A DNA stretch of 64,000 bases. Source: Microbispora hainanensis. Its GTDB lineage: Bacteria; Actinomycetota; Actinomycetes; Streptosporangiales; Streptosporangiaceae. Where the stretch lies: the NCBI RefSeq assembly GCF_036186745.1, contig NZ_CP108086.1, forward strand, positions 2,976,001 to 3,040,000, given 5' to 3'. This document shows positions 15,624 to 32,722 of the stretch, one piece after another. The position numbers and the translations under genes were made by a program. How positions within the stretch are numbered: position 1 is the stretch's first letter; each line of letters starts with the position of its first letter. The notes under the pieces are model-generated. The model was not told the origin of the DNA and ran no database searches. It saw only the letters and a list, made by a program, of their open reading frames with translations.

Positions 15624-16682
15624 TCAGCCGATGGTCCAGGTGTCCCCGCCGTGGAGCAGGTCGGCGAGGCTGCCCGCGCCCTTGGCGGCCGTGGCCGTCT
15701 GGACCTGCTCGTTGAGGAGCTGGTCGTACGACGGCCGGTCGATGGAGCGGAAGACGCCGATCGGCACGTGCTCGAACGCCGGCTCGTCCAGCCGCGACAG
15801 CGCGAACGCCAGCGACGGGTCGGGGTTGTGCGCGTCGTGCACGAGGATCTCGCCGTCGGAGACCTCGGCGCGGCGCACGACCTCGACGCCGCCCGTGGGC
15901 GACAGCCGTACGGCGCGCTCGTTGTCGCCGGTGCCGAAGACGATGGGCTGCCCGTGTTCGAGCCGGATGGTGATCTCGTCGCGGGTGCCCGGGTCCTTCA
16001 GCGTGTCGAAGGCGCCGTCATTGAAGATGTTGCAGTTCTGGTAGATCTCCACCAGCGAGGCGCCGCGGTGCTCGGCGGCCTGGCGCAGCACGCCCTGCAG
16101 GTGCTTGCGGTCGCTGTCGATGGTCCGGGCGACGAACCCGGCCTCCGCGCCGAGCGCCAGCGAGATCGGGTTGAACGGCTTGTCCAGCGAGCCCATCGGC
16201 GTCGACTTGGTGATCTTGCCGATCTCGCTCGTGGGGGAGTACTGCCCCTTGGTCAGGCCGTAGATCCTGTTGTTGAACAGCAGGATGTTCAGGTTGACGT
16301 TGCGGCGCAGCGCGTGGATCAGGTGGTTGCCGCCGATCGACAGCGCGTCGCCGTCACCGGTGATGACCCACACCGACAGGTCCGGCCGGGAGGCGGCGAG
16401 GCCGGTCGCGATGGCCGGCGCCCGCCCGTGGATCGAGTGGAAGCCGTAGGTGTTGAGGTAGTACGGGAACCGCGAGGAGCAGCCGATGCCGGAGACGAAC
16501 ACGATGTTCTCGCGCTTGAGCCCCAGCTCGGGCAGGAAGCTCTGCACCGCCGCCAGGATCGCGTAGTCACCGCAGCCCGGGCACCAGCGCACCTCCTGGT
16601 CGGACTTGAAGTCCTTCAGCGTCTGCTTGGCGTCCGTACGCGGGATCAGGGCCAGGCCCTTGCCGTTGAGTGTCTCAGTCAC
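15624..16682 (-). CDS. korB: 2-oxoglutarate:ferredoxin oxidoreductase, beta subunit
   Basis: The 352-residue TPP- and Fe-S-binding subunit acts with KorA to convert 2-oxoglutarate and CoA to succinyl-CoA, reducing ferredoxin. Cys ligands are in VRWCPGCGDYAIL and GIGCSSRFPYY. The TPP/Mg motif is GDGDALSIGGNHLIHALRRN, ending in NNRIYGLTKGQ. The full length matches actinobacterial KorB. It overlaps korA by 8 bp and is translated after it in a korA-korB operon. A 2-oxoacid partner other than 2-oxoglutarate is possible, but the actinobacterial KorAB type is the best match. Confidence 0.92.
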   Translation of the reverse strand: MTETLNGKGLALIPRTDAKQTLKDFKSDQEVRWCPGCGDYAILAAVQSFLPELGLKRENIVFVSGIGCSSRFPYYLNTYGFHSIHGRAPAIATGLAASRPDLSVWVITGDGDALSIGGNHLIHALRRNVNLNILLFNNRIYGLTKGQYSPTSEIGKITKSTPMGSLDKPFNPISLALGAEAGFVARTIDSDRKHLQGVLRQAAEHRGASLVEIYQNCNIFNDGAFDTLKDPGTRDEITIRLEHGQPIVFGTGDNERAVRLSPTGGVEVVRRAEVSDGEILVHDAHNPDPSLAFALSRLDEPAFEHVPIGVFRSIDRPSYDQLLNEQVQTATAAKGAGSLADLLHGGDTWTIG

Positions 16683-18519
16683 TTTCGATCACGTCCTGGA
16701 TGACGGCGGCGAGTTCGGCGGCCTTGAACGGAAGCCCGCGCACCCGGTTGTAGCTGATCACGTCGACCAGATAACGGGCCCGCAGCAGCATGGCGAGCTG
16801 ACCGAGGTTGATCTCCGGCAGCAGCACCTTGTCGTAGGAGCGCAGCACCTCGCCGGTGTTGGCGGGCAGCGGGTTGAGGTGCCGCAGGTGCGCCTGGGCC
16901 ACCTTGTGCCCCGCCGCGCGCACCCGGCGGGCCGCCGCCGCGATCGGCCCGTACGTCGAGCCCCAGCCGAGCACGAGCACCCGGGCGTCGCCGTCGGGGT
17001 CGTCGACCGTCAGGTCGGGCACGTCGATGCCGTCGATCTTGGCCTGACGCAGCCGCACCATCTTGTCGTGGTTGTCCGGATCGTAGGAGATGTTGCCGGT
17101 GCCGTCGGCCTTCTCGATGCCGCCGATCCGGTGCTCCAGGCCCGCCGTGCCCGGCACCGCCCACGGCCGGGCCAGCGTCTCCGGGTCACGCTTGAACGGC
17201 AGGTACGTGCCGTCCTCGCCGTTGGGCTCGGTGGTGAACAGCACCGAGATGTCCGGCAGCTCGTCGATGTCCGGGATGCGCCACGGTTCCGAGCCGTTGG
17301 CCAGGTAGCCGTCCGACAGCAGCATGACCGGCGTGCGGTACTTCAGCGCGATCCGCGCCGCCTCGATCGCCATCGTGAAGCAGTCCGACGGCGTGGCCGC
17401 CGCCAGCACCGGCACCGGCGACTCGCCGTTGCGGCCGTACATCGCCATCAGCAGGTCGGTCTGCTCGGTCTTGGTCGGCATGCCCGTCGAGGGCCCGGCC
17501 CGCTGCACGTCCACGATGATCAGCGGCAGCTCCGTGGTCACCGCGAGGCCTACGGTCTCGGCCTTGAGCGCGATGCCCGGACCGGAGGTCGTGGTCACGC
17601 CGAGCGACCCGCCGAAGGCCGCGCCGAGGGCGGCGCCCACGCCGGCGATCTCGTCCTCGGCCTGGAACGTCCGGATCCCGAACCGCTTGTGCTTGGACAG
17701 CTCGTGCAGGATGTCGGAGGCCGGAGTGATCGGGTAGGACCCGAGGAACAGCGGCAGCTTCGACTGCACCGACGCCGCGATCAGCCCGTACGCCAGGGCC
17801 TGGTTGCCGGAGATGTTCCGGTAGGTGCCCGGGCGGAGCGTGGCCGGCTTGATCTCGTACGACACCGAGAAGGACTCGGTGGTCTCGCCGTAGTTCCAGC
17901 CCGCCTGGAAGGCCGCGATGTTCGCCTTGGCGATCTCCGGCTTCTTGGCGAACTTGGCCTCCAGGAACTGGATCGTCCCCTCGGTCGGCCGGTGGTACAG
18001 CCACGACAGCAGCCCGAGCGCGAACATGTTCTTGGCCCGCTCGGCGTCCTTCTTGGAGATGTCGAAGCCTTCGAGCGCCTTGACCGTCAGCGAGGTCAGC
18101 GGCACCGCGTGCAGGCGCCACTCGGCCAGCGAGTCGTCTTCGAGCGGGTTGCCGTCGTAGCCCACCTTGGACAGGTTGCGCTTGGTGAACTCGTCGGTGT
18201 TCGCGATGATGTCGGCGCCCTTGGGGAGATCCCCGAGGTTCGCCTTCAACGCGGCGGGGTTCATGGCGACGAGCACGTTGGGCGCGTCGCCGGGGGTCAG
18301 GATGTCGTGGTCGGCGAAGTGCAACTGGAAGCTCGACACCCCGGGGAGGGTGCCGGCGGGAGCGCGGATCTCCGCCGGGAAGTTGGGGAGCGTCGACAGG
18401 TCGTTGCCGAACTGGGCCGTCTCCGCCGTGAACCGATCACCGGTGAGCTGCATTCCGTCGCCGGAGTCACCCGCGAACCGGATGATCACGCGGTCGAGTT
18501 GCTGAACCTGCTTGGTCAC
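16675..18519 (-). CDS. korA: 2-oxoglutarate:ferredoxin oxidoreductase, fused gamma-alpha subunit
   Basis: The 614-residue protein joins the gamma domain (residues about 1-190; FAGDSGDGMQLTGDRF) to the alpha pyrimidine-binding domain (about 200-600; NQALAYGLIAASVQSKLPLF, then YPITPASDILHELSKHK). In mycobacteria KorAB supports an oxygen-tolerant oxidative or reductive TCA step that uses ferredoxin instead of NAD. The ATG at 18519 follows GGAGGACTGAGGAGCTG-like purines. It is divergent from nuoA across 365 bp, and this pairing suggests that ferredoxin reduced here feeds the neighbouring complex I-like enzyme. Confidence 0.92.
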   Translation of the reverse strand: MTKQVQQLDRVIIRFAGDSGDGMQLTGDRFTAETAQFGNDLSTLPNFPAEIRAPAGTLPGVSSFQLHFADHDILTPGDAPNVLVAMNPAALKANLGDLPKGADIIANTDEFTKRNLSKVGYDGNPLEDDSLAEWRLHAVPLTSLTVKALEGFDISKKDAERAKNMFALGLLSWLYHRPTEGTIQFLEAKFAKKPEIAKANIAAFQAGWNYGETTESFSVSYEIKPATLRPGTYRNISGNQALAYGLIAASVQSKLPLFLGSYPITPASDILHELSKHKRFGIRTFQAEDEIAGVGAALGAAFGGSLGVTTTSGPGIALKAETVGLAVTTELPLIIVDVQRAGPSTGMPTKTEQTDLLMAMYGRNGESPVPVLAAATPSDCFTMAIEAARIALKYRTPVMLLSDGYLANGSEPWRIPDIDELPDISVLFTTEPNGEDGTYLPFKRDPETLARPWAVPGTAGLEHRIGGIEKADGTGNISYDPDNHDKMVRLRQAKIDGIDVPDLTVDDPDGDARVLVLGWGSTYGPIAAAARRVRAAGHKVAQAHLRHLNPLPANTGEVLRSYDKVLLPEINLGQLAMLLRARYLVDVISYNRVRGLPFKAAELAAVIQDVIESD

Positions 18520-18884: not shown

Positions 18885-19256
18885 ATGAGTGGATACTTCG
18901 GCTCCTATGTCGTGGTCGTCGTCCTCTTCCTCGTCGGCGTAGCGATCTTCGCGGGCGGTTTGTTCGTGAACCGCATGTTACGTCCCAGCCGGCCGACCCC
19001 CGAGAAGCTCACGACGTACGAGTGCGGGGTCGATCCCGTGGGCGAGGGCTGGGCGCAGTCGCAGATCCGCTACTACGTCTTCACGTACCTCTACGTGGTC
19101 TTCGCCGTCGACGCCGTGTTCCTCTTCCCCTGGGCGACCGTCTTCGCCGCCCCCGGATACGGCATGACGACCCTGGTGGAGATGTTCGTCTTCCTCGCGT
19201 TCATCGCGCTCGGCATCCTGTACGCCTGGCGCAAGAGGGTGCTGGGCTGGACGTGA
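18885..19256 (+). CDS. nuoA: NADH-quinone oxidoreductase subunit A (second copy type)
   Basis: The 123-residue protein has three membrane helices and is part of the membrane arm near the quinone channel. Conserved family features are [20 protein letters not shown] (the E-C-G loop) and [22 protein letters not shown]. The ATG at 18885 is supported by GGAGG 4 nt upstream. It opens a rightward cluster nuoA-B-C-H and later nuoI-N. No nuoE, F or G is nearby, so this belongs to the partial second complex I cluster type rather than the main 14-gene operon. Confidence 0.9.
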
Positions 19257-19279: not shown

Positions 19280-19312
19280 ATGGACGGCATGGCGGTGACC
19301 GCATGCCCGTGA
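19280..19312 (+). CDS. 10-codon micro-ORF overlapping the nuoB start
   Basis: GGGAGG (19271-19276) is followed by ATG 19280, which opens [10 protein letters not shown] and stops inside the nuoB start region in another frame. It may couple nuoB translation to ribosomes leaving nuoA, or it may be chance, with the purine run serving nuoB at a distance. Confidence 0.22.
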
Positions 19313-19821
19313 ACGATCTCCCGATGCCCACGGTGGGGCCGGCGTCCAGGCTGGCGCCCAAACCGATGAAGTTCGTGCTGAACTGGGGCCGGCGCTACTC
19401 GTTGTGGGTCTTCAACTTCGGGCTGGCCTGCTGCGCCATCGAGTTCATCGCCACGTCGATGAGCAGGCACGACTTCATCCGCTTCGGGGTGATCCCGTTC
19501 GCCAACGGCCCCCGGCAGGCCGACCTCATGATCGTGTCGGGCACGGTGACGGACAAGATGGCCCCTGCCGTACGCCGGCTGTACGAGCAGATGCCCGACC
19601 CCAAGTACGTCATCTCGTTCGGTGCCTGCTCCAACTCGGGCGGGCCCTACTGGGACTCGTACTGCGTCACCAAGGGCGTGGACCAGATCATCCCCGTGGA
19701 CGTGTACGTCCCCGGGTGCCCGCCCCGCCCCGAGGCGCTGCTCCACGGGATCATGAAGCTCCAGGAGAAGATCGCGGGCGAGACGCTCGAAGACCGCTAC
19801 CCGCCGGAGGCGGACGCATGA
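19303..19821 (+). CDS. nuoB: NADH-quinone oxidoreductase subunit B
   Basis: The 172-residue protein carries the N2 [4Fe-4S] cluster, the last electron carrier before quinone. All four expected cysteines are visible: the adjacent pair in [10 protein letters not shown], one in [11 protein letters not shown] and one in [13 protein letters not shown]. The conserved [22 protein letters not shown] is present. It overlaps nuoC by ATGA. An intact N2 site implies that this assembly is meant to transfer electrons, even though the quinone-site partner NuoD is not encoded here. Confidence 0.92.
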
Positions 19822-20348
19822 GCGCCGGCGCCGTTCGCGAGCGGTACGGCTCGCGCGTCACCGACTCCTTCGGCCAGGACGTGCTCGACGTGGACCCCGG
19901 CGAGTGGACCGACGCGCTGGCGTTCGCGCGCTCGGCCGGGTTCGAGTTCTTCGACTGGCTGACCGCCGTGGACGAGCCGCCCGAGGCGTTCGCCGTCGTG
20001 GCCCACGTGTTCGACCCGGTCGCGTTCGCCCACCTGCTCGTACGCACCCGGGTGCCGCGCGCGGACCCCCGCCTGCCGACCGCCACCGGCGTCTTCCGCG
20101 GGGCGAACTGGCACGAACGCGAGACGTACGAGATGTTCGGCGTCGTCTTCGACGGCCACCCGGACCTGCGTCCGCTGCTGCTGCCGGACGGCTTCGAGGG
20201 CCACCCGCTGCGCAAGGACTTCGTGCTGGCCGCCCGGGTCGCCAAGGCCTGGCCCGGGGCCAAGGAGCCGGGGGAGTCCGACCACGGCTCGCCGAGCCGC
20301 CGCAGGATGCTGCCGCCGGGGGTGCCACCCGACTGGGCCTCCGGGTGA
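19818..20348 (+). CDS. nuoC: NADH-quinone oxidoreductase subunit C (30 kDa type)
   Basis: The 176-residue hydrophilic subunit starts at ATG 19818, overlapping nuoB. The 30-kDa signature is complete: [20 protein letters not shown] and [16 protein letters not shown]. The C-terminus ([17 protein letters not shown]) is a short unstructured tail. The length rules out a NuoCD fusion, so NuoD, which normally follows, is absent; only 10 bp separate this stop from nuoH. Confidence 0.9.
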
Positions 20349-20358
20349 GAGGGGCGTC

Positions 20359-21312
20359 ATGGCCGAGGTGCTCGACATAGCGGTCCGGCTGGTCGTCGTG
20401 GTTGCGGCGTTCCTGCTGCTGCCGCTGATCGTCGGGCAGATGGAGCACAAGGCCATGGCCCACATGCAGTCCCGCCTCGGGCCGATGTACGCCGGTGGTT
20501 TCCACGGGTGGGCGCAGCTCCTCGCGGACGGCGTGAAGTTCGCCCAGAAGGAGGACGTCATCCCGGCCGCCGCCGACCGGCGGGTCTTCGCGATCGCCCC
20601 CGCGGTGGCGCTCGTGCCGTACCTCGTCGTGATGGTCGTGATCCCGGTCGGCCCCGGGCTCGCGGCCGTGGACCTCGACGCCGGGCTGTTCTTCGTGCTG
20701 GCGGTCATGGGCGTCGGCGTGCTCGGTGCGATCATGGCCGGGTGGGCCTCGGCCAACAAATACAGCGTGCTCGGCGGCATCCGGGCCGCCGCCCAGCTCA
20801 TGTCGTACGAGCTGCCGCTGGTGCTCGCCGCCTCCAGCGTGGCGATGGCCGCGGGCACCCTGTCTCTCCAGGGCATCGCCGAGCAGTGGCGCTGGTGGTG
20901 GCTGCCCTGGCAGGCGATCGGGGCCTTCGTGTTCTTCGTCGCCGGCCTGGCCGAGCTGCGCCGGCCGCCGTTCGACATGCCGATCGCGGAATCCGAGATC
21001 ATCATGGGCCCGATGACCGAATATGCCGGGTTCCGCTTCGCCCTGTTCATGCTGGCCGAGTACGCCGGGATCGTGGTGCTCTCCGCGCTGACGACCGTGC
21101 TGTTCCTCGGCGGCTGGCAGGGCCCTCTCCTGCCCGGCCCGGTGTGGACGTTGGTGAAGGTCTTCGCCCTGGCCTTCGTCGTCATCTGGGTGCGTGTCAG
21201 CTATCCCCGGATGCGCGAGGACCAGCTGCAGAAGTTCGCCTGGACCGTCCTGGTGCCCCTCGCTCTCCTCCAGCTCGCCCTCACCGGAGTCGTACGGGTC
21301 CTCACCGCCTGA
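20359..21312 (+). CDS. nuoH: NADH-quinone oxidoreductase subunit H
   Basis: The 317-residue membrane subunit (about 8 helices) forms the quinone channel floor. Diagnostic motifs are GWAQLLADGVKFAQKED and ELRRPPFDMPIAESEIIMGPMTEYAGFRFALFMLAEYA, with the acidic loop partly kept. The ATG at 20359 follows GAGAGGGG. The next nuo gene (nuoI) begins about 4 kb away because a leftward block of four to five unrelated genes intervenes, so nuoI-N probably need their own promoter at 25199-25351. Confidence 0.92.
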   Translation: MAEVLDIAVRLVVVVAAFLLLPLIVGQMEHKAMAHMQSRLGPMYAGGFHGWAQLLADGVKFAQKEDVIPAAADRRVFAIAPAVALVPYLVVMVVIPVGPGLAAVDLDAGLFFVLAVMGVGVLGAIMAGWASANKYSVLGGIRAAAQLMSYELPLVLAASSVAMAAGTLSLQGIAEQWRWWWLPWQAIGAFVFFVAGLAELRRPPFDMPIAESEIIMGPMTEYAGFRFALFMLAEYAGIVVLSALTTVLFLGGWQGPLLPGPVWTLVKVFALAFVVIWVRVSYPRMREDQLQKFAWTVLVPLALLQLALTGVVRVLTA

Positions 21313-21321: not shown

Positions 21322-21654
21322 TCACAACGGACACCTCCACCCCGGCCACCCCGCCGTCGCCTCGTCCTCCCACGCCTGCAACGTCTTGCCCGCATAAATG
21401 GTGTCTCCGTGATCGCTCCGCCATGTCACGAGTTCGGCGCCGGGCCGCACCTTCTTGTCCCTCAGCCACGGCTGGTGTGAGAGGTGTGCGGGCGGGACTT
21501 CGCCGTGATCGACAAGACATTGCACCACCGCCACGAGCGCCGCGTCGCGTCTCGTCACTTCGTCATCAGCGGGAGGAGACCGTCTTTCTTCGGTGCATCC
21601 GGCGAGCAGGACGAGGAGGCACATCGTGATCACCGCAAGATTCTTCGCTTTCAC
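21322..21654 (-). CDS. Small lipoprotein sharing a C-terminal domain with its upstream neighbour
   Basis: The 110-residue protein starts at GTG 21654 with a signal peptide ending in a lipobox (LLVLLAGC, Cys about residue 20). It should be a membrane-anchored lipoprotein. Its C-terminal 60 residues align with the end of the upstream large protein: VVQ-LVD-G-V-P, LV-W, H-DT-YAG-L and W--EA positions are shared. The start overlaps the upstream stop (GTGA), so the two are translationally coupled. This could be a duplicated domain, an immunity or receptor partner, or a competitor for the same ligand. No function is known to me. Confidence 0.65.
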   Translation of the reverse strand: MKAKNLAVITMCLLVLLAGCTEERRSPPADDEVTRRDAALVAVVQCLVDHGEVPPAHLSHQPWLRDKKVRPGAELVTWRSDHGDTIYAGKTLQAWEDEATAGWPGWRCPL

Positions 21655-23489
21655 TGCTGCATCCTCATGGCGGTCTGCGCCTCCGTTATCCAGTCTGTGA
21701 GCGACCTTCCCGCGTACCGAGTGTCGGCGTGCAGACTGATCCAGTCGACCAGGGCTGCATTGGGGATGACTCGCCCGTTGCTGACCCAGCTCGCATTCGG
21801 CCGCGGATGCACTGCCCCTGCGTCGACAAGTCCCTGCACTACGGGTACCTCCACCTGGAAGACCTGATGGCGGGATGCATCCATATTGGCTTTGAGGGCT
21901 TTCAGCGCATGTCCTGTGTCGAATGCTTCGTTGAGTGCAGGCGTACCAAGAGCGGTGAAGATCTGCGCCATCGTTCCTGGGCCGAAAGGGTTGGAGAAGC
22001 TGAGGGCACCGAATCCTCCGCTTGCGGTCGCGAGTAGCATCTGGTTCTTGGCGGCCTCCTCATCCACGCGTAGCTCGCCCTCGAAGTGATGAGTGTTCTC
22101 CACCCGCTGGATCAACCCGAAGAGGCCGCCCATTTCCCTGAGGTAGTTCCGGTCGGAAGGGTCGTGGATGGTAGCCGCGACGGCGACGCTCACGCGAGAG
22201 GCCATCAAACCCTTGAACGCGCCGAACTCCTCGGGCTTCTGCAGCGCCTGCGTGAAGAACCCCTCAAGCTCGTCGAGCTTGTTGATGGGCACCCAGGGGT
22301 TGGTGCTCTTGTTGCCCTGCTGCAGCGCGCCGGAGGCGAAATTGTGATTCACCGACTGCGCGAAGTCGGGAAGATAGCGGCCTGCAACGTATAGCAGGGA
22401 ACCGCGGATCTCCTCGGGCAGATGGGTTCCCGGGTGGAGTTTGGAGAATTCGGCGGTGGCTTGGACGATGTGGACGACGGACCAGGCGGATTCCTTGGCG
22501 TCGGCGGAGGTGCCGCGTTCCGCGGAGACGGCCGCCTTGAGGAAGGCCGCAGTGGGCGCGGAGAGGTCCACCTGGCCGATGGGCGGAAGCACGCCGCCCG
22601 GGTGCACGTATGAGCTCAGGAAGGGCCCCGGGTCGTAGCCGGGGGTGTGCCAGGAATCGCTGACGAGCATGCGGGCGTACTTCAGGCCGGTGGTCTGATC
22701 GCCCAGCACGTGGCGGGCGGCCATGCCGTTCTCCGCGGCCCGCTGGAGGACGGCCCCCACGGCGTCGTACTCCGCCATGAGCCGCTGGTGGCGTGACGCG
22801 TCGGCGTCGGTCTCCAGCGGGCCTCGGGCGGGCGGCCAGATCGTCTTGCCGGCGGCGCGGGCGTCGAGCATGGCGCGGGTCAGGTCGGCCAGGAAGCGGG
22901 AGTCCCATGACCTGCCCTCGGGGCCGTACTTCACCAGCATGCCGACCGACCAGGGGTCGGAGTTCGCGGTGAGGGCGGCGCGGGTCGCGTCGGGCAGCAA
23001 CGGGCGGCGGTCCTTGCCCGTGCCGACGCGCATCTGGCCGGCGGCGGCCAGGGACGCCCCGAGGGCCCGCAGCACGCTCACGCTCTCCGCGCTGAACAGC
23101 GCACTTCCCGTTCGTTCGTACAGCGCGCGGGCGGCGCGCAGTGCGAGCGGCCCGGCCCCGGCCCAGAAGGCCGCCTGGTAGTCCTCGTCGGCGAGGTGCC
23201 GCTGCAGGCTCTCCGGCAGTCCCAGGAGGGCGGTGCGGGCCTCCTCGGGGTTCTTGGCCGCGAGGGCGGCGGCCAGCGTCTCCGCGTCGCGTTTGCCCTG
23301 GTTTCCGCTCTGTCCCGTGGCCTCCCAGTCGAGCCGTACGCTGGGCGGCCGGTCCAAGGTGAGGCCGGGGACGCCGGGCGCGCGGCTCAGCGCGCTCCAG
23401 CCCTGCTCCCTCGCCAGCTCGTACGCCCTGGTCGTGCGGGCGTCCATGTCGCGTACGTCGTCGAGCGCGGCGGCGATGAGGCCGGGCAA
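21651..23489 (-). CDS. Large ESX-associated-type protein of unknown function (DUF6571-like), main part
   Basis: The 612-residue protein is alpha-rich with no signal peptide or membrane segment. The architecture (short helical N-terminus, long Ala-rich middle, conserved LGDQTTGLKYARMLVSDSW, WSVVHIVQATAEF and LLATASGGFGALSF blocks) resembles large actinobacterial proteins encoded beside WXG100 genes, tentatively DUF6571. The only start is TTG 23489. The same frame continues upstream through one TAG codon (23514-23516) into a 39-residue ORF preceded by a WXG100 gene, so the natural N-terminus is probably at GTG 23633 and the gene is interrupted. Its C-terminal 60 residues recur in the coupled lipoprotein. 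A secreted effector or surface role is inferred from the WXG100 neighbour only. Confidence 0.6.
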   Translation of the reverse strand: MPGLIAAALDDVRDMDARTTRAYELAREQGWSALSRAPGVPGLTLDRPPSVRLDWEATGQSGNQGKRDAETLAAALAAKNPEEARTALLGLPESLQRHLADEDYQAAFWAGAGPLALRAARALYERTGSALFSAESVSVLRALGASLAAAGQMRVGTGKDRRPLLPDATRAALTANSDPWSVGMLVKYGPEGRSWDSRFLADLTRAMLDARAAGKTIWPPARGPLETDADASRHQRLMAEYDAVGAVLQRAAENGMAARHVLGDQTTGLKYARMLVSDSWHTPGYDPGPFLSSYVHPGGVLPPIGQVDLSAPTAAFLKAAVSAERGTSADAKESAWSVVHIVQATAEFSKLHPGTHLPEEIRGSLLYVAGRYLPDFAQSVNHNFASGALQQGNKSTNPWVPINKLDELEGFFTQALQKPEEFGAFKGLMASRVSVAVAATIHDPSDRNYLREMGGLFGLIQRVENTHHFEGELRVDEEAAKNQMLLATASGGFGALSFSNPFGPGTMAQIFTALGTPALNEAFDTGHALKALKANMDASRHQVFQVEVPVVQGLVDAGAVHPRPNASWVSNGRVIPNAALVDWISLHADTRYAGRSLTDWITEAQTAMRMQQ

Positions 23490-23513
23490 TGAGGTGACCG
23501 CGACTTCGCTTCC

Positions 23514-23633
23514 CTATTTCTGCATTTTCTGCTGTATGAGGGGGCTATGCCGGGCCAGCAGTTCGTGTAGCCGTTCGAGCCTTTTCGTGAGTTCCTTGAG
23601 ATTATCGGGATCGACTCCGACGAAGTCCCCCAC
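23514..23633 (-). pseudogene. N-terminal piece of the large ESX-associated-type protein, ending at an in-frame TAG
   Basis: GTG 23633, preceded by GGAAGGATC, opens 39 codons (GDFVGVDPDNLKELTKRLER ... QQKMQK) that stop at TAG and continue in the same frame as the 612-residue ORF. The piece is a helix typical of the start of WXG100-partner proteins. One substitution, for example TGG to TAG, would explain the split. It lies 24 bp after the WXG100 stop. Confidence 0.55.
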
Positions 23634-23657
23634 GGCGATCCTTCCCGGTGCGGCGGC

Positions 23658-23918
23658 CTACGAGGCGGCTTTGCGGCGCTCCGCCTCCTCCACACGGGCG
23701 ATCAGGCGCGGCTGCTCGGCGAGCACGGCGTCGAAGAGCCTGGTGAGCTGGGTCTTCCGGGCGTTCCAGCCGGCGGCCCAGCGGTCGGCCGCAGGGCCCT
23801 GCCAGGTGTGGTCGCCGAACATGGCCGGGACGGCGGTGAGCGCCTGGAGGATCTCCCGTACGGCGGTCGCGGTCGCGGCCATGTCCGCCCTGCATTCGAC
23901 GATCTCGGATGACGTCAC
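23658..23918 (-). CDS. WXG100 (ESAT-6-like) family protein
   Basis: The 86-residue protein is a helical hairpin with the W-x-G turn (HTWQGPAADRWAAGWNARK) at about residue 40 and the expected helix lengths on each side. WXG100 proteins are exported by type VII (ESX) systems as homo- or heterodimers. GTG 23918 is preceded by GGGAGGG. There is no ESX ATPase or EccB-E gene in the window. The next gene downstream is the large split protein, a common WXG100-effector arrangement. Confidence 0.75.
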   Translation of the reverse strand: MTSSEIVECRADMAATATAVREILQALTAVPAMFGDHTWQGPAADRWAAGWNARKTQLTRLFDAVLAEQPRLIARVEEAERRKAAS

Positions 23919-24016
23919 CGGCCCTCCCGTTTCTCACGCTGACGCACCGTAAGCCTAAGGAAACACCGATCGCTCAGCCAGGGATATGCGCGACGACAAT
24001 CGGGATTGCCGAATAA

Positions 24017-25198: not shown

Positions 25199-25351
25199 GG
25201 TCCAGACGATACGTATTTGTCGGGGTCCGCGCTGCCCCCTTCTCCCCACATCCTGTGGACAACCCTGGGGATGACGGTGTGGACGATGTGGAAAACAGCC
25301 CGGACGGAGTCACGCGTTCACGCGCCGCCGATAGTGCGCGATGATGAGCAG
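25199..25351. promoter_or_regulatory. Divergent region between the HhH gene and nuoI
   Basis: These 153 bp separate oppositely transcribed genes and must hold both promoters. I see no confident -35/-10 pair. nuoI would otherwise have no promoter because the block before it is on the other strand. Confidence 0.35.
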
Positions 25352-26104
25352 GTGGCGCACATTCCAGGAGAAGGGCTGGCCAAGGGTTTGGCCGTGACCA
25401 TGCGGCACATGCTGCGGAAGTCCGACACGCAGCAGTACCCGGAGGTCCACCCCGACCTGCCCGCCCGCAGCCGGGGCGTGATCGCCCTGGTCGAGGAGAA
25501 CTGCACCGTCTGCATGCTCTGCGCCCGCGAGTGCCCCGACTGGTGCATCTACATCGACTCCCACAAGGAGACCCTGCCGGCGCCCGAGGGTGGCCGCCCG
25601 CGCGCCCGCAACGTGCTCGACCGCTTCGCGATCGACTTCTCGCTGTGCATGTACTGCGGCATCTGCATCGAGGTGTGCCCCTTCGACGCACTGTTCTGGT
25701 CGCCCGAGTTCGAGTACGCCGAGTACGACATCCGCGATCTTCTCCACGAGAAGGACAGGCTGGGCGAGTGGGCGGCCACCGTGCCGCCGCCACCGGCTCA
25801 CGAGGTCGGCGCCGAGCCGCCGAAGGAACTGTCGGCCGCGTCCCGCCCGGCACCGGCCCGCCGTACGGCACCGCCCGCGCCGGCGAGGGGGCCCGCCGAG
25901 GGCACGTCAGCGGCCCAGGAGACCGCCCAGGAGACCGTGCGGGAACCGGCGGCGGAGCCCGCGAAGAGTGCGGAGAATCGCCCGCGTCGTGAGCCGCCCA
26001 GAGCCATGCGCGACATCCGCTCCATCCGGCCGCCGGGCTCGCTGCCCAAGAAGAACGGCCCGTCGTCACAGGAGAAGAAGGACGGGCCCGAGGGGGAGCG
26101 ATGA
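25352..26104 (+). CDS. nuoI: NADH-quinone oxidoreductase subunit I with disordered C-terminal extension
   Basis: The 250-residue ferredoxin-like subunit carries clusters N6a and N6b. Both 4Fe-4S motifs are intact: [16 protein letters not shown] and [19 protein letters not shown]. Residues about 155-250 are an Ala/Glu/Pro-rich tail that exceeds the usual length. GTG 25352 gives the family-like N-terminus [19 protein letters not shown] 25334 is an alternative. In NuoEFG-less enzymes NuoI is the expected docking point for reduced ferredoxin, which fits with korAB nearby. It overlaps nuoJ by ATGA. Confidence 0.9.
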
Positions 26105-26640
26105 CCTCCCAGGCGCCGGGGTTGTGGCCGCCCTCGGGGCCTGAGATCGTCTTCCTGCTGCTCGGCGCCGTCGCCGTCGGCTCCGCCCTGCTGGTCGTCA
26201 CGACCAGGCAGCTCGTTCACGCGGCGCTGTGGCTGGTCGTCTGCTTCGGCGCGCTCGCGGGCGGCTATCTGGTGCTGACCGCCGAGTTCGTCGCCTGGGT
26301 GCAGGTGCTGATCTACGTGGGCGCGGTCGTGGTGCTGCTGCTGTTCGGGATCATGCTGACCCGCGCGCCCATCGGGCCCTCGGCCGGCCTCGACTCCGGC
26401 AACCGGTGGGCCGCCGCGCTGGTCGCCGTCGCGACCGCCGCCGTGCTCGTCACCGTGGTGATCACCGGCTTCCGCTCGGCGTACGCACCGCTCCAGCCCG
26501 GGCAGGGGGCGGCCGAACCCCTGGGAGCGAGCGTCTTCCGCACCTGGGTGCTGCCGTTCGAGGCGCTGTCGGTGCTCCTGCTCGCCGCGCTGATCGGCGC
26601 GATCGTCCTGTCCCGTACGGACATCAGGGGGCGGGAATGA
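26101..26640 (+). CDS. nuoJ: NADH-quinone oxidoreductase subunit J
   Basis: The 179-residue protein has five membrane helices. Family-typical segments are [40 protein letters not shown] (with the pi-bulge helix) and [19 protein letters not shown]. It contributes to the proton path next to NuoK. ATG 26101 overlaps nuoI. A 53-bp gap before nuoK contains only a 16-codon frame that I do not consider a gene. Confidence 0.9.
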
Positions 26641-26693: not shown

Positions 26694-27047
26694 ATGCACG
26701 TCGTCTACCCGGTGGTGATCTCCGCCCTGTTGTTCTCCATCGGTGTGTACGGCGTGCTGGCCCGGCGCAACGCGATCCTCGTGCTGATGTCGGTCGAGCT
26801 GATGCTCAACGCGGTCAACCTCAACCTGGTGGCCTTCGATGTCTGGCTCAGGGACCGCCTGCACGGCGGACAGGTGCTGACGCTGTTCGTCATCGTGATC
26901 GCCGCGGCCGAGGTGGGCCTGGGGCTGGCGATCGTGCTGGCCGTCTTCCGTACCCGCCGGACCGTCGACGTCGACCGGTTGCGGGCGCTCGCCGAAGTCG
27001 TACGCGCGCCCGGCCCGGGGCGTCCGGATGAGGAGGACGCCTCGTGA
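26694..27047 (+). CDS. nuoK: NADH-quinone oxidoreductase subunit K
   Basis: The 117-residue protein has three membrane helices with the conserved glutamate in [16 protein letters not shown] and the second acidic position in [18 protein letters not shown], both needed for proton translocation. The C-terminal 25 residues are a hydrophilic extension. GTG of nuoL overlaps its stop codon (GTGA). Confidence 0.9.
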
Positions 27048-28969
27048 TCGTCGTCGTGGCTCTCATCGTCCTGCTGCCGTTCGCCGCCGCCGCGGCGGGG
27101 CTGCTGGCGACCCGCCTCGGCACCCGGAACCTGGGCGCCCGCGCGGAACGGGTGGCATACCGGCGGGCGGCCTGGTTCGCGATCGCCCCGGGCGCGGTGT
27201 CGGCGGCGCTGACGGTGTGGCTCGCCGCCGCCCTCGCGGGGAGAACGGGCGCGTCGGAAGGGCGCTTCTGGTCGGAACTGCTGCCCGGCCGGGTCGAGGG
27301 CACGCTGACGGTGGTCGAGACGGGGTCGGTGCCGATCTCCCTGACTCTGCGGGCCGACGGATTGTCAGTGCTCGCGGGCATCCTGGTCGTCGTGGTCGCG
27401 CTGGCGGTGCAGGTCTACTCGGTCGGGTACATGCGGGACGAACCCCGCTACCCGTCCTACAGCGCGTTCGTCAGCCTGTTCACCAGCGCCATGCTGCTGG
27501 TCGTCTACGCGGGGGACCTGATCGTCCTCTACGTCGGCTGGGAGGTCATGGGCCTGTGCTCCTACCTGCTCATCGGGCACTGGTGGGAAGACCGGGCCAA
27601 CTCCCGGGCGGCGGTGAAGGCGTTCCTGGTCACCCGGCTCGGCGACGTCGGCTTCCTGTTCGGGATCTTCGTCCTCGGCACGGCGGCGGGCGGCTTCCGG
27701 ATCGACGACGTGCTGCGCGCCGACATTCCCCAGGGCACGCTCATCGCCGCGACGCTGCTGCTGCTCGCCGGGGTCGCGGGCAAGAGCGCGCAGGCGCCGC
27801 TGCATACCTGGCTGCCCGACGCGATGGCCGGTCCCACCCCGATCAGCGCGCTCATCCACGCGGCCACGATGGTGGCGGCCGGGATCTTCGTCGTCGCCCG
27901 GCTCTATCCCGCCTTCCTCGCGGCGCCGCCCACGCTCGACGTGCTGGGCGTGGTCGCCGCCGTCGGCATGCTGGGCGCCGCCCTCGCCGCGCTCGCGCAG
28001 GACGACCTCAAGCGCGTGCTGGCCTACTCGACGATCAGCCAGCTCGCCTACATGGCCGCGGCGCTGGCCGCCGGGTCCGACCGGGCGGCGATGTTCCACC
28101 TGGTGTCGCACGGCGCGTTCAAAGCCCTGCTGTTCCTCTGCGCGGGCCTGGTGATCCACCACGTCGGGTCGAACCTGATCAGCCACATGGGCGGGCTGCG
28201 CCGCGCTCTTCCCGTGACGTTCTGGACGATGACCATCGGTTTCGCCGCGCTCGCCGGGCTGCCGCCCGCGAGCGGGTTCTTCAGCAAGGACGCGGTGCTC
28301 TCGGCCGTCGAGCACGGGACGGGACCGGCCCAGCCGTTCGCGTACGCGTCGGCGCTGCTGACCGTGGGGGTGACCGGGGCGTACGCCGCCCGGGCCTGGC
28401 TGCGCACGTTCTTCGGGCCCGCCCGGGTCGAGCCGCTCGCGGAGCCGTCGCCCGGTGTCGCCCACGTCTTCGACGGCCGGGAGGCGCCCCGGTCGATGCT
28501 GTGGCCGGCCGGTGTGCTGGCCGTGCCCGCCCTGCTGCTCGGCCTCGCCGGATCGGTGGCCGGGTCGGCGACCGGGTCGGCGACCGGAGTGGAGGTCGAG
28601 TGGGGGCCGGCGGCCGTCAGCCTCGCCGTCGCGCTGCTCGGCGCCGGGATCGTGTACGCCCTGTGGCGGGCCGCGCCCGAACAGGATCCGGCCCGGCTGC
28701 TCGGGCCGTTCCGGGTGCCGTGCGAGCGGGCCTTCTACGTGGACGCCGCGTACGCGGCACTGGTCGCCCGGCCCGTCCTGCGCCTGGCCAGGGTGGTGGT
28801 CCGTACGGACACACGGGTGGTGGACGGCGCGGTCCGCGGCTCCGGCCGGGCGACGCTCGGCCTGTCCGGCCTGGTGCGGCTCGCCCAGAACGGCAACGCA
28901 CAGCTCTACGTCACCGGCCTGTTCGCCGGGCTCGTACTGATCGCGGTCGCGGCGGTGGTGCTGACATGA
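27044..28969 (+). CDS. nuoL: NADH-quinone oxidoreductase subunit L
   Basis: The 641-residue Mrp-type antiporter-like subunit has about 16 helices and the long lateral helix region. Typical motifs are [21 protein letters not shown], the Lys of [33 protein letters not shown], and [14 protein letters not shown]. Residues about 500-520 hold a short [13 protein letters not shown] repeat in a loop. GTG 27044 is coupled to nuoK. The next ORF overlaps its stop by ATGA. Confidence 0.92.
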
Positions 28970-29214
28970 CGCGGCGGATTCGAAACGGTGGCGCGCAGCT
29001 TCTTCGCGGTCACGCGCCGGCTCGGACACGCGGCGCGTGGCTTCTCCACGGCGGTGCGTGGCTTCTCCAGGGCGGTGCGTGGCTTCCCCACGGCGGTGCG
29101 TGGCTTCTCCAGGGTGGCGCGCGGCTTGGGAACGGCGACGCAGGGCTTCCTGGCGGTGGCGCGTGGCTTCCCCGTGGTGGTGACACCGTGGTGGCGTTGG
29201 CGGTGACGACGTGA
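28966..29214 (+). CDS. 82-residue repeat ORF coupled between nuoL and nuoM
   Basis: ATG 28966 overlaps the nuoL stop (ATGA), and the TGA at 29212 overlaps the GTG of nuoM (GTGA), so the frame fits exactly between two genes. The product repeats GGAWLLH/GGAWLLQ/GGAWLPH units of 8 residues (24 bp). The +1 frame also reads through (AVRGFS repeats), so it may be repetitive filler rather than a protein. I do not recognise it. Confidence 0.35.
   Translation: MTRRIRNGGAQLLRGHAPARTRGAWLLHGGAWLLQGGAWLPHGGAWLLQGGARLGNGDAGLPGGGAWLPRGGDTVVALAVTT
29033..29130 (+). repeat. 24-bp imperfect tandem repeats between nuoL and nuoM
   Basis: Four or so units of the type GGCGGTGCGTGGCTTCTCCA alternate TCTCCA/CCCCAC at their ends. 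The unit length is a multiple of three, leaving all frames open. Confidence 0.7.
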
Positions 29215-30878
29215 GCTGGTTGCCGATCGCACTCGTGGCCGTCCCCCTGCTGGGCGCCCTCGCCGCCTTCGTGCGGGCCGTACGGGACAGTGCGGTGGCC
29301 TGGGGGATCGCCGTCTCGGCGGCGGTGCTGGTCCTCGCCGCAGCGCTCGCCGCGGTCTTCGACTACGCCCGCCCCGCCGAGATGCAACTGCAGACCGATC
29401 AGCCCTGGATCCCCGGCCTCGGCCTGCGGTTCCACCTGGGCGTGGACGGCGTCTCGCTGCCGCTCGTCGTGCTGACCGCGCTGCTCACGTTCCTGTGCTT
29501 CGTCCACCTCACGGGGCATCCGCCGGAGGGCGGCCGGACGGGTGGGCTGGTCGTCACGCTGCTCGTGCTCGAAGTCGGCATGCTCGGCACGTTCCTCGCC
29601 CTCGACCTGCTGCTGTTCTTCGTGTTCTTCGAGGTCGTGCTGGTCCCGATGTATTTCGTGATCGCCCTGTGGGGCGGCGCGGGCAGGCGGGTGGCGGCCG
29701 TGAAGTTCATCCTCTACACGCTGCTCGGCAGCGCGGTCCTTCTCATCGGCCTGCTCGTCGTCTGGACCCAGGCCGGCACGCTCGACATGGTCGCGCTGGC
29801 CGACCGCCACGGCTCGGGCATCGCCCGGTCGGCCCAGATTCTCGCGTTCCTCGCCATCGGTCTCGGCCTGGCGGTGAAGACGCCCATGTGGCCGCTGCAC
29901 ACCTGGCTGCCCGACGCGCACACCGAGGCGCCGACCGTCGGCTCGGTGCTGCTCGCGGGCGTGCTGCTCAAGATGGGTTCGTACGGCTTCGCCAGGATCG
30001 CGATCCCGGTGCTTCCCGAGGGCGCGGCGGCCCTGGCACCCTGGCTAGGCGCGTTCGCCGTGGCCGGCATCGCGTACGGATCGCTCGCCTGCCTCGCCCA
30101 GCGCGATCTCAAACGAATGATCGCCTACTCGTCCGTCGGCCACATGGGCTTCGTGCTGCTCGGATTCGCCTCGCTCACGCCGGTGGGCATGAACGGCGCA
30201 CTGTTCGCCAACGTCGCCCACGGGCTGATCACCGGCCTGCTGTTCTTCCTCGCAGGAGCGGTCAAGGAGCGGTACGGCACGGCCGACATGGTCCGGCTCG
30301 GCGGCGGGATGCTGCGCCGCCTGCCGTACGTCGGGTCGCTGCTGACCTTCGCCTGCGTCGCCTCGCTGGGCCTGCCCGGCCTCGCCGGGTTCTGGGGGGA
30401 GATGCTCGCGCTGCTCGGCGCGTTCCGCCCGGCCGCAGGGCTCTCCCGGCCACCGTTCCTCGTGTTCATGGCCGTCGGAGGGCTCGGCACGGTGCTCACC
30501 GCGGCCTACTTCCTGGTCATGCTCTCGCGGGTGACGCACGGCCGGGCGGTCGAAACCGTCTCGCCCGCCGCGCCTCTCCAACCCGCGCCTCTCGAACCCG
30601 CGCCTCTCGAACCCGCGCCTCTCGAACCTGCCGGGCCACTCGAATCGGCGCGGCCGGGTGCGACGGGTGCCGCAGGGGCGGCGGTCGGGGTGGACACTCG
30701 CGACGGGGCCGAGCCGGGCCAGGGGCGGCGGCGCTTCCGGGACGCCACGACCCACGAACTGGCCGCATGGCTTCCGCTGGTTGCGCTGATCATGCTGTTC
30801 GGCCTGTGGCCGAAGGCGCTGCTCGCCGTCACCACGCCCGCCGTGCAGTCGCTCCTCGGATCGGGGGCGGCTCCATGA
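29211..30878 (+). CDS. nuoM: NADH-quinone oxidoreductase subunit M with repeat insertion near the C-terminus
   Basis: The 555-residue antiporter-like subunit has about 14 helices. Core motifs are LFFVFFEVVLVPMYFVIALWG (conserved Glu), [22 protein letters not shown] and LKRMIAYSSVGHMGFVLLG. Between the penultimate and last helices (residues about 450-510) lies a Pro/Ala/Leu/Glu repeat (four PAPLE units) and a Gly/Ala-rich loop that are not typical of the family. GTG 29211 is coupled to the repeat ORF. ATG of nuoN overlaps the stop. Confidence 0.9.
   Translation: MSWLPIALVAVPLLGALAAFVRAVRDSAVAWGIAVSAAVLVLAAALAAVFDYARPAEMQLQTDQPWIPGLGLRFHLGVDGVSLPLVVLTALLTFLCFVHLTGHPPEGGRTGGLVVTLLVLEVGMLGTFLALDLLLFFVFFEVVLVPMYFVIALWGGAGRRVAAVKFILYTLLGSAVLLIGLLVVWTQAGTLDMVALADRHGSGIARSAQILAFLAIGLGLAVKTPMWPLHTWLPDAHTEAPTVGSVLLAGVLLKMGSYGFARIAIPVLPEGAAALAPWLGAFAVAGIAYGSLACLAQRDLKRMIAYSSVGHMGFVLLGFASLTPVGMNGALFANVAHGLITGLLFFLAGAVKERYGTADMVRLGGGMLRRLPYVGSLLTFACVASLGLPGLAGFWGEMLALLGAFRPAAGLSRPPFLVFMAVGGLGTVLTAAYFLVMLSRVTHGRAVETVSPAAPLQPAPLEPAPLEPAPLEPAGPLESARPGATGAAGAAVGVDTRDGAEPGQGRRRFRDATTHELAAWLPLVALIMLFGLWPKALLAVTTPAVQSLLGSGAAP
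30570..30629 (+). repeat. Four 15-bp tandem repeats inside nuoM
   Basis: The unit GCGCCTCTCGAACCC is repeated four times with one variant base and encodes APLEP. It is in frame and lies in a predicted hydrophilic loop. Confidence 0.8.
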
Positions 30879-32722
30879 CGGGCGGCTCCATGACGGGCGG
30901 TGGCGTGTTGGGCGGCGTGTTCGGCGGTGGTGTGATGGACGGCGGCGTGATCCAGTCCATCGACTACGCCGCCGTTGCGGCGCCGCTGATCCTCGCGCTG
31001 GTGGCCGGGCTCGTGCTGCTGCTCGACGCGTTCCTGCCGGCCCGCCCCGGCGGGGCGCGGGTGCTCGGTCTCGTCACACTCGGCGGCATGGTCGCCGCCC
31101 TGGCGGTCGTGGCCGTTCAGGCCGCGAGCGGCGGCGCCCGGCGCACGTTCTGCGTCCCCGCCTCGCTCGGCGGGGCGTCCGCCCTGGGCCAGCCCGCGAC
31201 GGGCCAGCCCGTGGCAGGCATGGCCGCAACGGGCCGGATCGCAGCGGGTCAGGCCGCCACGGACCAGATCGCAATGGGTCAATCCGCGCTGGGTCAATCC
31301 GCGCTGGGTCAGTCCGCGGCAGGTCAGGCCGCCATGGGCCGGGGCGTTGCGGCGTCGTGCTCGCTCGTTGCGGACCGCTTCTCCCTGCTCATCGCGGCGG
31401 TCGTGCTGGCGGCCGGGGTGGTCGTCGTGCTGCTGTCGATGACGGAGATCGCCACGGCACGCGACGCCGGGTCCGATAAGCGTGTCCCGGCGGGGGAGTG
31501 GCACTTCCTGCTCCTGGCCACGCTGACCGGGGCGGTGCTGCTGCCGGCCTCTCGCGATCTCATCATGCTGGTCGTGTCGCTGGAGCTGGTCTCGCTGCCG
31601 GTCTTCGCGCTGACCGCACTCAGACGCCACGACGGACGCGCCGCAGAGGCGGCCCTCAAGCTCTTCCTGGTCTCGGTGGTCTCCACCGCGATCACGCTTT
31701 TCGGCGTCTCGCTCCTCTACGGGGTGACCGGCTCGGTCCACCTCGACCGGATCGACGCCGCGCTGCGGACGGCGGGCGGCATGACCGGAGGCGCGGCCGG
31801 GGGAGTGACCGGGGACTCTATTGGGGACTCGATTGGGGACACAGCGGGAGACCTGGCCGGGGCCGCCGCCGGAGGAACCGCCGGGGACATGGCCCGGGTC
31901 GCGGTGGTGGCGATCGTGCTGGTGGCGGCGGGCTTCGCCTTCAAGATCGCCGCGGTGCCGTTCCACTTCTGGGCAGGAGACGTCTATCAGGGCGCCCCGG
32001 TCCCGGTCGCGGCGCTGCTGTCGGTGGTGTCCAAGGCGTCGGGCTTCGCCGGGCTGATCCTGCTGCTGACGTACGCGCTGCCGGGAAGGGCGGCGGTGTG
32101 GGCGCCGGGAGTGGCGGTCGTCGCCGCGCTGACGATGACGGCGGGCAACGTCCTCGCGATGCGGCAGCGTGCCGCCGTCCGGCTGCTGGCCTGGTCGTCG
32201 GTGGCGCAGTCGGGCTACATCCTCGCGCCGCTGGCCGTCTACGCCGTCGCCCCTCGCGCGGCGGTCGGCGCGTCGGTCGCCTATCTCGTCTTCTACGCCG
32301 CGATGAACCTGATCGCCTTCGCGGTGGTCCTGCTGGTGGCGCGGCTGCCCGGAGGCCAGGACCTGGAGGCATATCGGGGGCTGGCGCTGCGGAGCCCGGC
32401 GGCCGGGCTGTCCCTCGCCTTCGCCCTCGTCTGCCTGGCCGGGCTGCCGCCCGGGCTCGCCGGTCTGTTCGCGAAGATCGTCGTCTTCCGGGCGGTGGTG
32501 GACGGCGGGCTCGGCTGGCTGGCCCTCGTCATGGCGGCCAACACGGTGGTCGGGCTCTACTACTACATCGCCTGGACCGCCCGGCTGTTCGCGCCGCCCG
32601 CGGCGGGCGAGAGCCGTACGGTCTCGGCGAGGGCGGCGGCGGGTGCCGCGGTCGCCGTCACGGTCGCCGTCACCGTGGTCTTCTCCGTAGCCCCGCAGGT
32701 GGTGCTGTCCGTCACAGGGTGA
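30875..32722 (+). CDS. nuoN: NADH-quinone oxidoreductase subunit N with three low-complexity insertions
   Basis: The 615-residue antiporter-like subunit is about 100 residues longer than usual. Core motifs are present: DLIMLVVSLELVSLPVFAL (Glu), FAFKIAAVPFHFWAGDVYQGAPVPV (Lys) and LAGLPPGLAGLFAKIVVF. The extra length comes from an N-terminal MTGG/GGV repeat (residues 1-22), a GQSAL/GQAA-type repeat (about 105-155) and a GDSIGDSIGDTAGD stretch (about 300-340), all in loops. ATG 30875 overlaps nuoM. It ends the nuo cluster. Confidence 0.9.
   Translation: MTGGSMTGGGVLGGVFGGGVMDGGVIQSIDYAAVAAPLILALVAGLVLLLDAFLPARPGGARVLGLVTLGGMVAALAVVAVQAASGGARRTFCVPASLGGASALGQPATGQPVAGMAATGRIAAGQAATDQIAMGQSALGQSALGQSAAGQAAMGRGVAASCSLVADRFSLLIAAVVLAAGVVVVLLSMTEIATARDAGSDKRVPAGEWHFLLLATLTGAVLLPASRDLIMLVVSLELVSLPVFALTALRRHDGRAAEAALKLFLVSVVSTAITLFGVSLLYGVTGSVHLDRIDAALRTAGGMTGGAAGGVTGDSIGDSIGDTAGDLAGAAAGGTAGDMARVAVVAIVLVAAGFAFKIAAVPFHFWAGDVYQGAPVPVAALLSVVSKASGFAGLILLLTYALPGRAAVWAPGVAVVAALTMTAGNVLAMRQRAAVRLLAWSSVAQSGYILAPLAVYAVAPRAAVGASVAYLVFYAAMNLIAFAVVLLVARLPGGQDLEAYRGLALRSPAAGLSLAFALVCLAGLPPGLAGLFAKIVVFRAVVDGGLGWLALVMAANTVVGLYYYIAWTARLFAPPAAGESRTVSARAAAGAAVAVTVAVTVVFSVAPQVVLSVTG
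31187..31338 (+). repeat. 15-bp tandem repeats inside nuoN
   Basis: About ten degenerate units around GGTCAATCCGCGCTG, two of them identical and adjacent, encode GQSAL-like pentapeptides between the second and third predicted helices. Confidence 0.75.

Follow-up and report, generated by a model that had tools for sequence, protein, structure and literature searches.

Within a 64,000-nucleotide stretch of the Microbispora hainanensis genome (contig NZ_CP108086.1, positions 2,976,001 to 3,040,000; hereafter, the window) lies a complex I-like gene cluster, here called Nuo2, which has neither a nuoD gene in its expected place nor an NADH module (NuoEFG), and which raises the question of where its D subunit is encoded and what kind of enzyme it might form. 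Gene content and comparison with other genomes make it likely that Nuo2 is a KorAB-linked, EFG-less complex I, with ten of its genes in the window and the gene for its D subunit (nuoD2) unlinked and near a MidA gene, and that the soluble core of B2, C2, D2, and I2 is the unit under selection. In this reading, the gene content, the displaced NuoD2, the pairing with MidA in the class, the residue pattern, and the repeated loss of the membrane arm are taken from the sequences, and the electron donor, the acceptor, ion pumping, and methylation are proposed. Published work is cited here for those portions of its text that were available.

A dedicated NuoD2 encoded away from the Nuo2 cluster

As seen by Pfam, the cluster encodes NuoA, B, C, H, J, K, L, M, and N together with a two-cluster, ferredoxin-type NuoI (Table 1). 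NCBIfam models named A, B, C, H, I, L, and M, with B, H, L, and M over the curated cut-off and A, C, and I under it. Alignment of cysteines located the N2 ligands of NuoB2 (C43, C44, C109, and C139) and all eight N6a/N6b cysteines of NuoI2. The subunit list and intact cofactor cysteines given in the initial annotation of this DNA were thus borne out, as was the divergent arrangement with korA and korB, which run leftward at a distance of 365 bp from nuoA2. The annotated absence of an NADH module also held, since no NADH-module family matched among the cluster open reading frames scanned; genome-wide, in a search made for the NuoF family (PF01512) and not for NuoE or NuoG, hits were confined to the main nuo operon and C1:3819457. 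The latter (C1:3819457-3819924) is a second NuoF-like flavoprotein in a frame of 518 amino acids (aa), away from both nuo loci. With the unlinked D subunit described below, all 11 subunits of an EFG-less complex I (A, B, C, D, and H to N) are encoded, ten of them in the window, including the ligands of N2, N6a, and N6b.

The cluster is interrupted between nuoH2 and nuoI2 by approximately 4 kb of leftward genes (21322-25249). Further upstream, nuoC2 ends at 20348 and nuoH2 starts at 20359, leaving the 10 bp without nuoD that the initial annotation had described. When this spacing was compared in relatives, a check proposed there, a D-less distance of -17 to +45 bp was observed in 33/33 full-cluster loci measured (32 genomes); it is therefore not special to the window genome, and an assembly error hiding nuoD is ruled out. 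The absence of nuoD had been considered the unusual part of the locus, a view that could not be maintained, since Streptomyces nuo2 with a separate, unlinked nuoD2 is already in print (PMC3765725, PMC8388888).

The genome is a single 8.8-Mb contig (C1), and the main nuo operon, which includes a NuoD and a NuoF, starts near C1:2873000, some 120 kb upstream of Nuo2. A search of the genome with PF00346, also proposed as a check, detected two NuoDs (from three matched stretches), one being NuoD1 of the main operon and the other NuoD2, a protein of 404 aa encoded at G000:C1:1815030-1816244, 1.18 Mb from the cluster, with no other nuo gene recognised within 20 kb around it. Of the second, co-expressed nuoD paralogue that the initial annotation had named as contrary evidence, the paralogue itself is thus present. 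In a tblastn-type comparison with the main operon, NuoD2 was 33% identical to NuoD1; the other subunits of Nuo2 were 32-37% (A2, C2, H2, I2, M2, and N2), 39% (L2), 48% (K2), and 50% (B2) identical to their counterparts, with no match for J2. The divergence of NuoD2 is comparable to that of the other subunits, which counts for its belonging to Nuo2.

The occurrence of these genes was followed in 148 genomes of the class and in a phylum-wide draw of 198 genomes, some of them incomplete, with absence resting on search thresholds. NuoD2 was counted for second-kind matches down to 265 bits (67 genomes, excluding the main NuoD of G054 at 260 bits), NuoH2 for matches above 260 bits (41 genomes), and MidA for every profile match, including one at 20 bits (68 genomes); the 20 loci of other classes and the 32 genomes of the MidA profile check were hand-picked by the analyst. 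NuoH2 was thus present in 41/148 class genomes, and NuoD2 in 39 of these 41; the two genomes without it are 72% and 80% complete, and both have MidA. In G128, rated 100% complete and carrying its cluster in locus L156, each of the searches for NuoD, NuoH, NuoB, and NuoI gave a single match, in every case of the second kind, and no other NuoD was found. We also observed a colinear nuo2 operon with D2 placed between C2 and H2 in 16 of the 20 loci of other classes (L241-L244, L246-L257), 15 of which span A2 to N2, with L243 broken off by the contig end within M2. The D gene occupies the same place in L258 and L259, where H, D, or I is nearer the main type or (I in L258) gave no match, and L260 is a rearranged locus. 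Because its ortholog sits inside the nuo2 operons of other classes, tracks NuoH2, and is the sole NuoD found in G128, NuoD2 is, on these comparative grounds, the displaced D subunit of Nuo2 and not a lost one. From the classes where it is still inside, we infer that nuoD2 left the operon in an ancestor. One further locus of another class (L245, genome G193) has nuoD2 outside its nuo2 operon and a MidA match 6.6 kb off, possibly an independent move.

The large subunit of group 4 [NiFe] hydrogenases carries two CxxC metal-ligand motifs; NuoD2 has no CxxC and only two single cysteines.

Pairing of NuoD2 with a MidA/NDUFAF7-family gene

Near nuoD2, at C1:1810533-1811573, the window genome carries a gene for a MidA/NDUFAF7-family methyltransferase, which matched PF02636 at 78 bits (cut-off, 23.3) and the DUF185/COG1565 structures 1zkd (E 2e-8) and 4f3n (E 3e-9). 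In many class genomes, the surroundings of nuoD2 (METHYLTRANSFERASE) place it between panC/DUF2520 genes and a DUF3180 gene. Among the 148 class genomes, 61 have both MidA and NuoD2, 6 have NuoD2 only, 7 have MidA only, and 74 have neither, and PF02636 was missing from all 13 NuoD2-less class genomes profiled. Where both occur, they share a contig in 54 genomes and lie within 5 kb in 50 and within 1.5 kb in 20. The 80 loci from named records, which are mostly from Streptomyces, together with Kitasatospora, Streptantibioticus, Longispora albida, and a few metagenome-assembled genomes, include MidA in 78 cases, at no more than 500 bp in 69. In other classes, MidA follows nuoN2 in L253, L254, and L256 and is found near nuoD2 in further genomes (e.g., G275, G304, G314, and G324). 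A 2018 paper by Shahul Hameed et al. is said to deal with MidA.

Human NDUFAF7 methylates Arg85 of NDUFS2 (PMC3829151), and the equivalent residue of Yarrowia, R121, lies 3.7 Å away from N2, and Thermus has Thr in its place (PMC8042128). At this position (Arg81 of NuoD2), Arg was found in NuoD2s of full-set genomes (38/38), of genomes without the membrane arm (24/24), and in the other NuoD2s of the class (3/3), as well as in 20/20 NuoD2-like proteins of other classes and 80/80 from named records, whereas 21/21 main NuoDs aligned have Thr; these residue counts omit G021 (partial NuoD2) and G097 (partial, with an internal stop). The equivalent of Tyr108 is Trp in all NuoD2s of the class and of the named records and in 17/20 from other classes (Tyr in L258-L260), and all 21 main NuoDs have Tyr there. 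His59 is absent from a single NuoD2, of a membrane-arm-less genome. Tyr108 and His59 (bovine numbering) are the canonical quinone ligands; the His is kept and the Tyr replaced. Because complex I of this kind is defined by its subunits, filing Nuo2 as complex I rests on composition. In NuoH2, all 33 loci (32 genomes) have EHK for ERR, GPM for GPN, and Val, Ile, Leu, or Thr for the first Glu of PEGE/PEAE, all of them differences at conserved sites. Given this gene pairing and residue pattern, methylation by MidA of the NuoD2 Arg next to N2 is proposed.

Retention of the soluble core without the membrane arm

NuoB, C, D, and I make up the soluble Q-module of complex I. NuoD2 without a NuoH2 match above 260 bits was found in 28 class genomes, and in 26 of them a nuoB2-nuoC2-nuoI2 trio was located, with no nuo2 membrane genes between or beside its members except for remnants in G030; several of the 26 have main-type nuo genes some kb away. 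The remaining two are G070, in which the contig ends in nuoC2, and G097, which is 77% complete. Three more genomes, G004, G023, and G042 (93, 80, and 85% complete), have the trio and no NuoD2 match. In 16/26 genomes korA is divergent and within 2.5 kb of nuoB2, and in the other 10 there was no korA in the stretch fetched. The idea that NuoD2 acts alone in genomes without NuoH2 was rejected: no further nuo gene was present in the 11.5-20 kb around each of 20 such nuoD2 genes, but the NuoB2 search revealed the B2-C2-I2 trios at other sites, in many cases the kor locus.

Alignment of 27 trios (24 of the 26 membrane-arm-less genomes plus G004, G023, and G042, with G016 and G030 kept apart) showed that the four N2 cysteines of B2 and the eight cysteines of NuoI2 are kept in 27/27. 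Of the 17 positions lost in NuoD2, 11 fall in segments 44-68 and 152-168, which contain only 19 of the 84 that full-set and main NuoDs conserve (Fisher P 2.6e-5, the segments having been picked after the data were seen). The inter-cysteine spacer of NuoB2 measures 59 aa in 22/22 full sets versus 52-67 aa in 24 trios, with 3/27 off the pattern. Before its first Cys, NuoI2 has 49-71 residues in 29/29 full sets versus 13-32 in 20/27 trios, lengths that depend on called starts, an upstream stop forcing fewer than 49 in only 8/27 trios; they were used instead of a helix-motif pattern for this N terminus, which was too strict (1/29 full-set sequences matched). The two NuoD2 segments and the other degraded elements are parts expected to lie on the side of the membrane or the quinone tunnel.

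A loss of the same kind was observed in G016, a species of the window's own genus whose DNA aligns with the window at 72-90%. Relative to the window, three gaps, 18917-19244 (nuoA2), 20342-21322 (nuoH2), and 26119-32860 (nuoJ2-N2), take out all seven membrane genes, and a fourth (21549-23239) falls inside the leftward genes. The locus is on two contigs, L127 and L159, abutting at approximately 23535 of the window. The entire G016 genome gave no NuoH2-type match, and the L127/L159 loci gave none for NuoA2 or NuoJ2-N2. B2, C2, I2, D2, and MidA are retained. Likewise, G030 keeps B2, C2, and I2; its NuoH2 is reduced to fragments, its NuoA2 match is atypical, and its nuoI2 is followed by the gene that comes after nuoN2 in the window. 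The membrane-facing NuoD2 residues examined are still intact in both genomes, as expected for G016 if its loss is recent. An ortholog of the lipoprotein-like leftward gene of the window lies after nuoC2 in G016.

In a tree rooted on other-class NuoD2, the 24 membrane-arm-less NuoD2s formed one clade (Shimodaira-Hasegawa-like approximate likelihood ratio test, 95) within the full-set NuoD2s of the class, G016 grouped with full-set members of its genus (99), and G030 grouped with full-set G048 and G128 (94; 95 when main NuoD served as the root). Neither tree was bootstrapped, both being quick searches, and seven long sequences were flagged in the one rooted on other classes. By these three separate placements, there have been at least three losses of the membrane arm, with B2, C2, D2, and I2 retained each time. 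The main-NuoD-rooted tree, which came with long-branch warnings, suggested that the membrane-arm-less state is ancestral; this was discarded, since the other-class outgroup makes it one derived clade.

Alternative explanations

An alternative for the membrane-arm-less genomes, unlikely in our view, is that B2, C2, D2, and I2 dock on the main membrane arm and yield a ferredoxin-fed version of the main complex I. Such docking would find main complex I genes in most of these genomes and intact membrane-facing NuoD2 residues in G016 and G030, but the larger clade has degraded membrane-facing elements, namely, the two NuoD2 segments with 11/17 lost positions, the NuoB2 spacer, and the NuoI2 N terminus. 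Slightly less probable still is that Nuo2 forms no enzyme of its own and that L2/M2 and other subunits are swapped into the main enzyme, a proposal made for Streptomyces with reference to antisense RNAs that cover nuoL2/M2 and are conserved among three streptomycetes, and to the analogous isoforms of cyanobacteria (PMC3765725, PMC8388888). Against such a swap, the second set is complete, including B2, C2, D2, and I2, no main-type match for NuoB, D, H, or I accompanies the Nuo2 of G128, and it is B2/C2/D2/I2, not L2/M2, that lineages losing the membrane arm retain.

The split of the cluster by 4 kb of leftward genes and the at least three losses of the membrane arm in relatives could also be taken as signs of a decaying, functionless cluster; this is very improbable, as the frames are open, the cofactor cysteines are intact, NuoH2 occurs in 41/148 genomes, and the losses keep the same four soluble subunits, with all 12 Fe-S cysteines of B2 and I2 in 27/27 trios. 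Least credible is the proposal of the initial annotation that Nuo2 borrows NuoD1 from the main operon, where a nuoD does exist approximately 120 kb upstream, since a dedicated NuoD2 orthologous to the in-operon D of other classes tracks NuoH2 (39/41) and is the only NuoD found in G128.

KorAB as the putative electron source

For Nuo2 as an EFG-less complex I in its own right, the neighboring kor genes suggest a donor: korA lies within 12 kb of nuoH2 in 26/41 genomes. In mycobacterial extracts with 2-oxoglutarate as the donor, methyl viologen was reduced and NAD and menadione were not measurably reduced (PMC2773412), a result that fits KorAB needing a partner, and EFG-less complex I enzymes are in print (PMC11238625). 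From position, chemistry, and these enzymes, we infer that KorAB electrons enter at NuoI2. KorAB would oxidise a 2-oxoacid, probably 2-oxoglutarate, and the electrons would pass via ferredoxin or directly to N6a and N6b of NuoI2, then to N2 of NuoB2, and finally to an acceptor at the NuoB2/NuoD2 site, where Trp stands in for the quinone-binding Tyr and the Arg next to N2 is the proposed target of MidA. Where present, the membrane arm (A2, H2, and J2-N2) may couple this electron flow to ion pumping.

We further propose, tentatively and with slightly less than even confidence, that B2-C2-D2-I2 is a stand-alone soluble redox enzyme for which the membrane arm is optional. On this view, actinobacteria would have converted a complex I more than once into a soluble oxidoreductase linked to KorAB, in which a rebuilt N2 site (Trp108, MidA-modified Arg85, and His59) hands electrons to something other than membrane quinone. 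With the Trp in place and tunnel elements lost, the soluble form is unlikely to carry out an ordinary quinone reaction; the full form may do so.

Several observations weigh against parts of this account. The equivalent Arg of E. coli is unmodified (PMC3750175), so that an Arg is no proof of methylation. The PF02636 profile found nothing in 10/11 tested genomes of other classes, nor in G015, G083, G097, G116, G127, and G137, and the Arg85 equivalent is kept in every aligned NuoD2 of those MidA-less genomes; G069 (94% complete) and G078 (100%) have a MidA match and no NuoD2. The replacement of Tyr108 by Trp and the changes of NuoH2 at conserved sites argue against an ordinary quinone site. In addition, KorA was matched in 120/148 class genomes, with or without nuo2 (a few matches being weak or partial), and because it is so widespread, its link to nuo2 is positional only. 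The initial annotation had put forward a ferredoxin:menaquinone oxidoreductase fed by KorAB; of this, an EFG-less complex I beside korAB stands and an entry of ferredoxin electrons at NuoI is plausible, but KorAB is not nuo2-specific, and the Tyr-to-Trp change leaves the menaquinone step uncertain. A second KorA (73% identical) is encoded at G000:C1:6879318-6881150.

Comparison with known systems

The window system is of the kind described as nuo2 in Streptomyces, with the same kind of gene set, no N-module, and an unlinked nuoD2; the available portions of these accounts (PMC3765725, PMC8388888) contain no mention of midA, of Arg85/Trp108, of the in-operon nuoD2 of other classes, or of membrane-arm-less forms. 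According to the part available of its description, the complex I of a strict anaerobe is likewise without NuoEFG, with pyruvate:ferredoxin oxidoreductase and ferredoxin as proposed donors; the window system differs from it in an unlinked D near the MidA gene and in the Trp at the quinone Tyr. NDUFAF7/MidA and Arg85 of NDUFS2 (PMC3829151, PMC3750175) provide a parallel in the same PF02636 family, with the target Arg in the HRG motif of NuoD. Unlike in that pair, the window-type gene accompanies one complex I isoform out of two, and methylation by its product is a prediction.

The retention of the soluble Q-module without a membrane arm appears to be new, as do the removal of all seven membrane genes by three gaps in a same-genus species and the pairing of the NuoD2 and MidA genes with its Arg/Thr residue contrast and the Trp that mostly replaces the quinone-site Tyr. 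Among open PMC papers, we found no report of a MidA-NuoD2 pairing or of a natural B/C/D/I set. NuoB, C, D, and I are familiar as the hydrophilic (connecting) fragment of complex I, a biochemical fragment which, to our knowledge, is not known as a stand-alone natural gene set; the membrane-arm-less genomes encode these same four subunits. In the current understanding of complex I, the redox arm serves to drive the membrane arm, and a redox core kept while the pump was shed at least three times would be a natural test of that core acting alone. The presence of NuoD2 (Arg) and main NuoD (Thr) in one cell would offer a direct route to the purpose of the modification made by NDUFAF7 at its target, and Nuo2 may explain how aerobic actinobacteria dispose of KorAB electrons. 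G128 (L156), whose NuoB, D, H, and I matches are all of the second kind, would be a good organism for biochemistry.

Features of the window

Table 1. Genes in and around the Nuo2 cluster (window coordinates)
Feature	Position	Strand	Evidence and remarks
korB, 2-oxoacid:ferredoxin oxidoreductase beta	15624..16682	-	PF02775; best NCBIfam PRK11866 and TIGR02177, both under cut-off
korA, 2-oxoacid:ferredoxin oxidoreductase alpha, gamma-alpha fusion	16675..18519	-	PF01558 and PF01855; TIGR03710 over cut-off
nuoA2	18885..19256	+	PF00507; 32% to main NuoA; missing from same-genus G016 locus
nuoB2, N2 cluster subunit	19303..19821	+	PF01058; NF005012/TIGR01957 over cut-off; 50% to main NuoB; four N2 Cys
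nuoC2	19818..20348	+	PF00329; 34% to main NuoC
10-bp nuoC2-nuoH2 gap, place of nuoD2 in operons of other classes	20349..20358	.	Spacing and other-class operons
nuoH2	20359..21312	+	PF00146; NF004741 over cut-off; missing from G016 locus
Leftward genes between nuoH2 and nuoI2: 110-aa lipoprotein-like (by eye), 612-aa, 86-aa, and proline-rich HHH_3 proteins	21322..25249	-	
nuoI2, two 4Fe-4S clusters	25352..26104	+	Fer4 families; NuoI models under cut-off; eight ligand Cys
nuoJ2	26101..26640	+	PF00499; no tblastn match to main operon at E 1e-3
nuoK2	26694..27047	+	PF00420
nuoL2	27044..28969	+	PF00361/PF00662; TIGR01974 over cut-off
nuoM2	29211..30878	+	PF00361; TIGR01972 over cut-off
nuoN2, start uncertain	30875..32722	+	PF00361 in longer frame; 34% to main NuoN
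Flanking gene, outside the enzyme	32890..33738	+	In G016 directly after nuoI2; marks end of nuoJ2-N2 gap

NuoN2 (30875-32722) contains low-complexity stretches (GQSALGQSALGQS, GDSIGDSIGD) amid recognisable parts. A long repetitive tail was seen at the end of the NuoC2 of G133 (L158 8320-9675), and ten full-set NuoC2 sequences measure 393-488 aa. The 612-aa protein among the leftward genes (21322-25249) had no Pfam match. Outside the cluster, window positions 10669-14868 encode a protein of 1399 aa in which Pfam recognised two Laminin_G_3 and two PKD_4 stretches.

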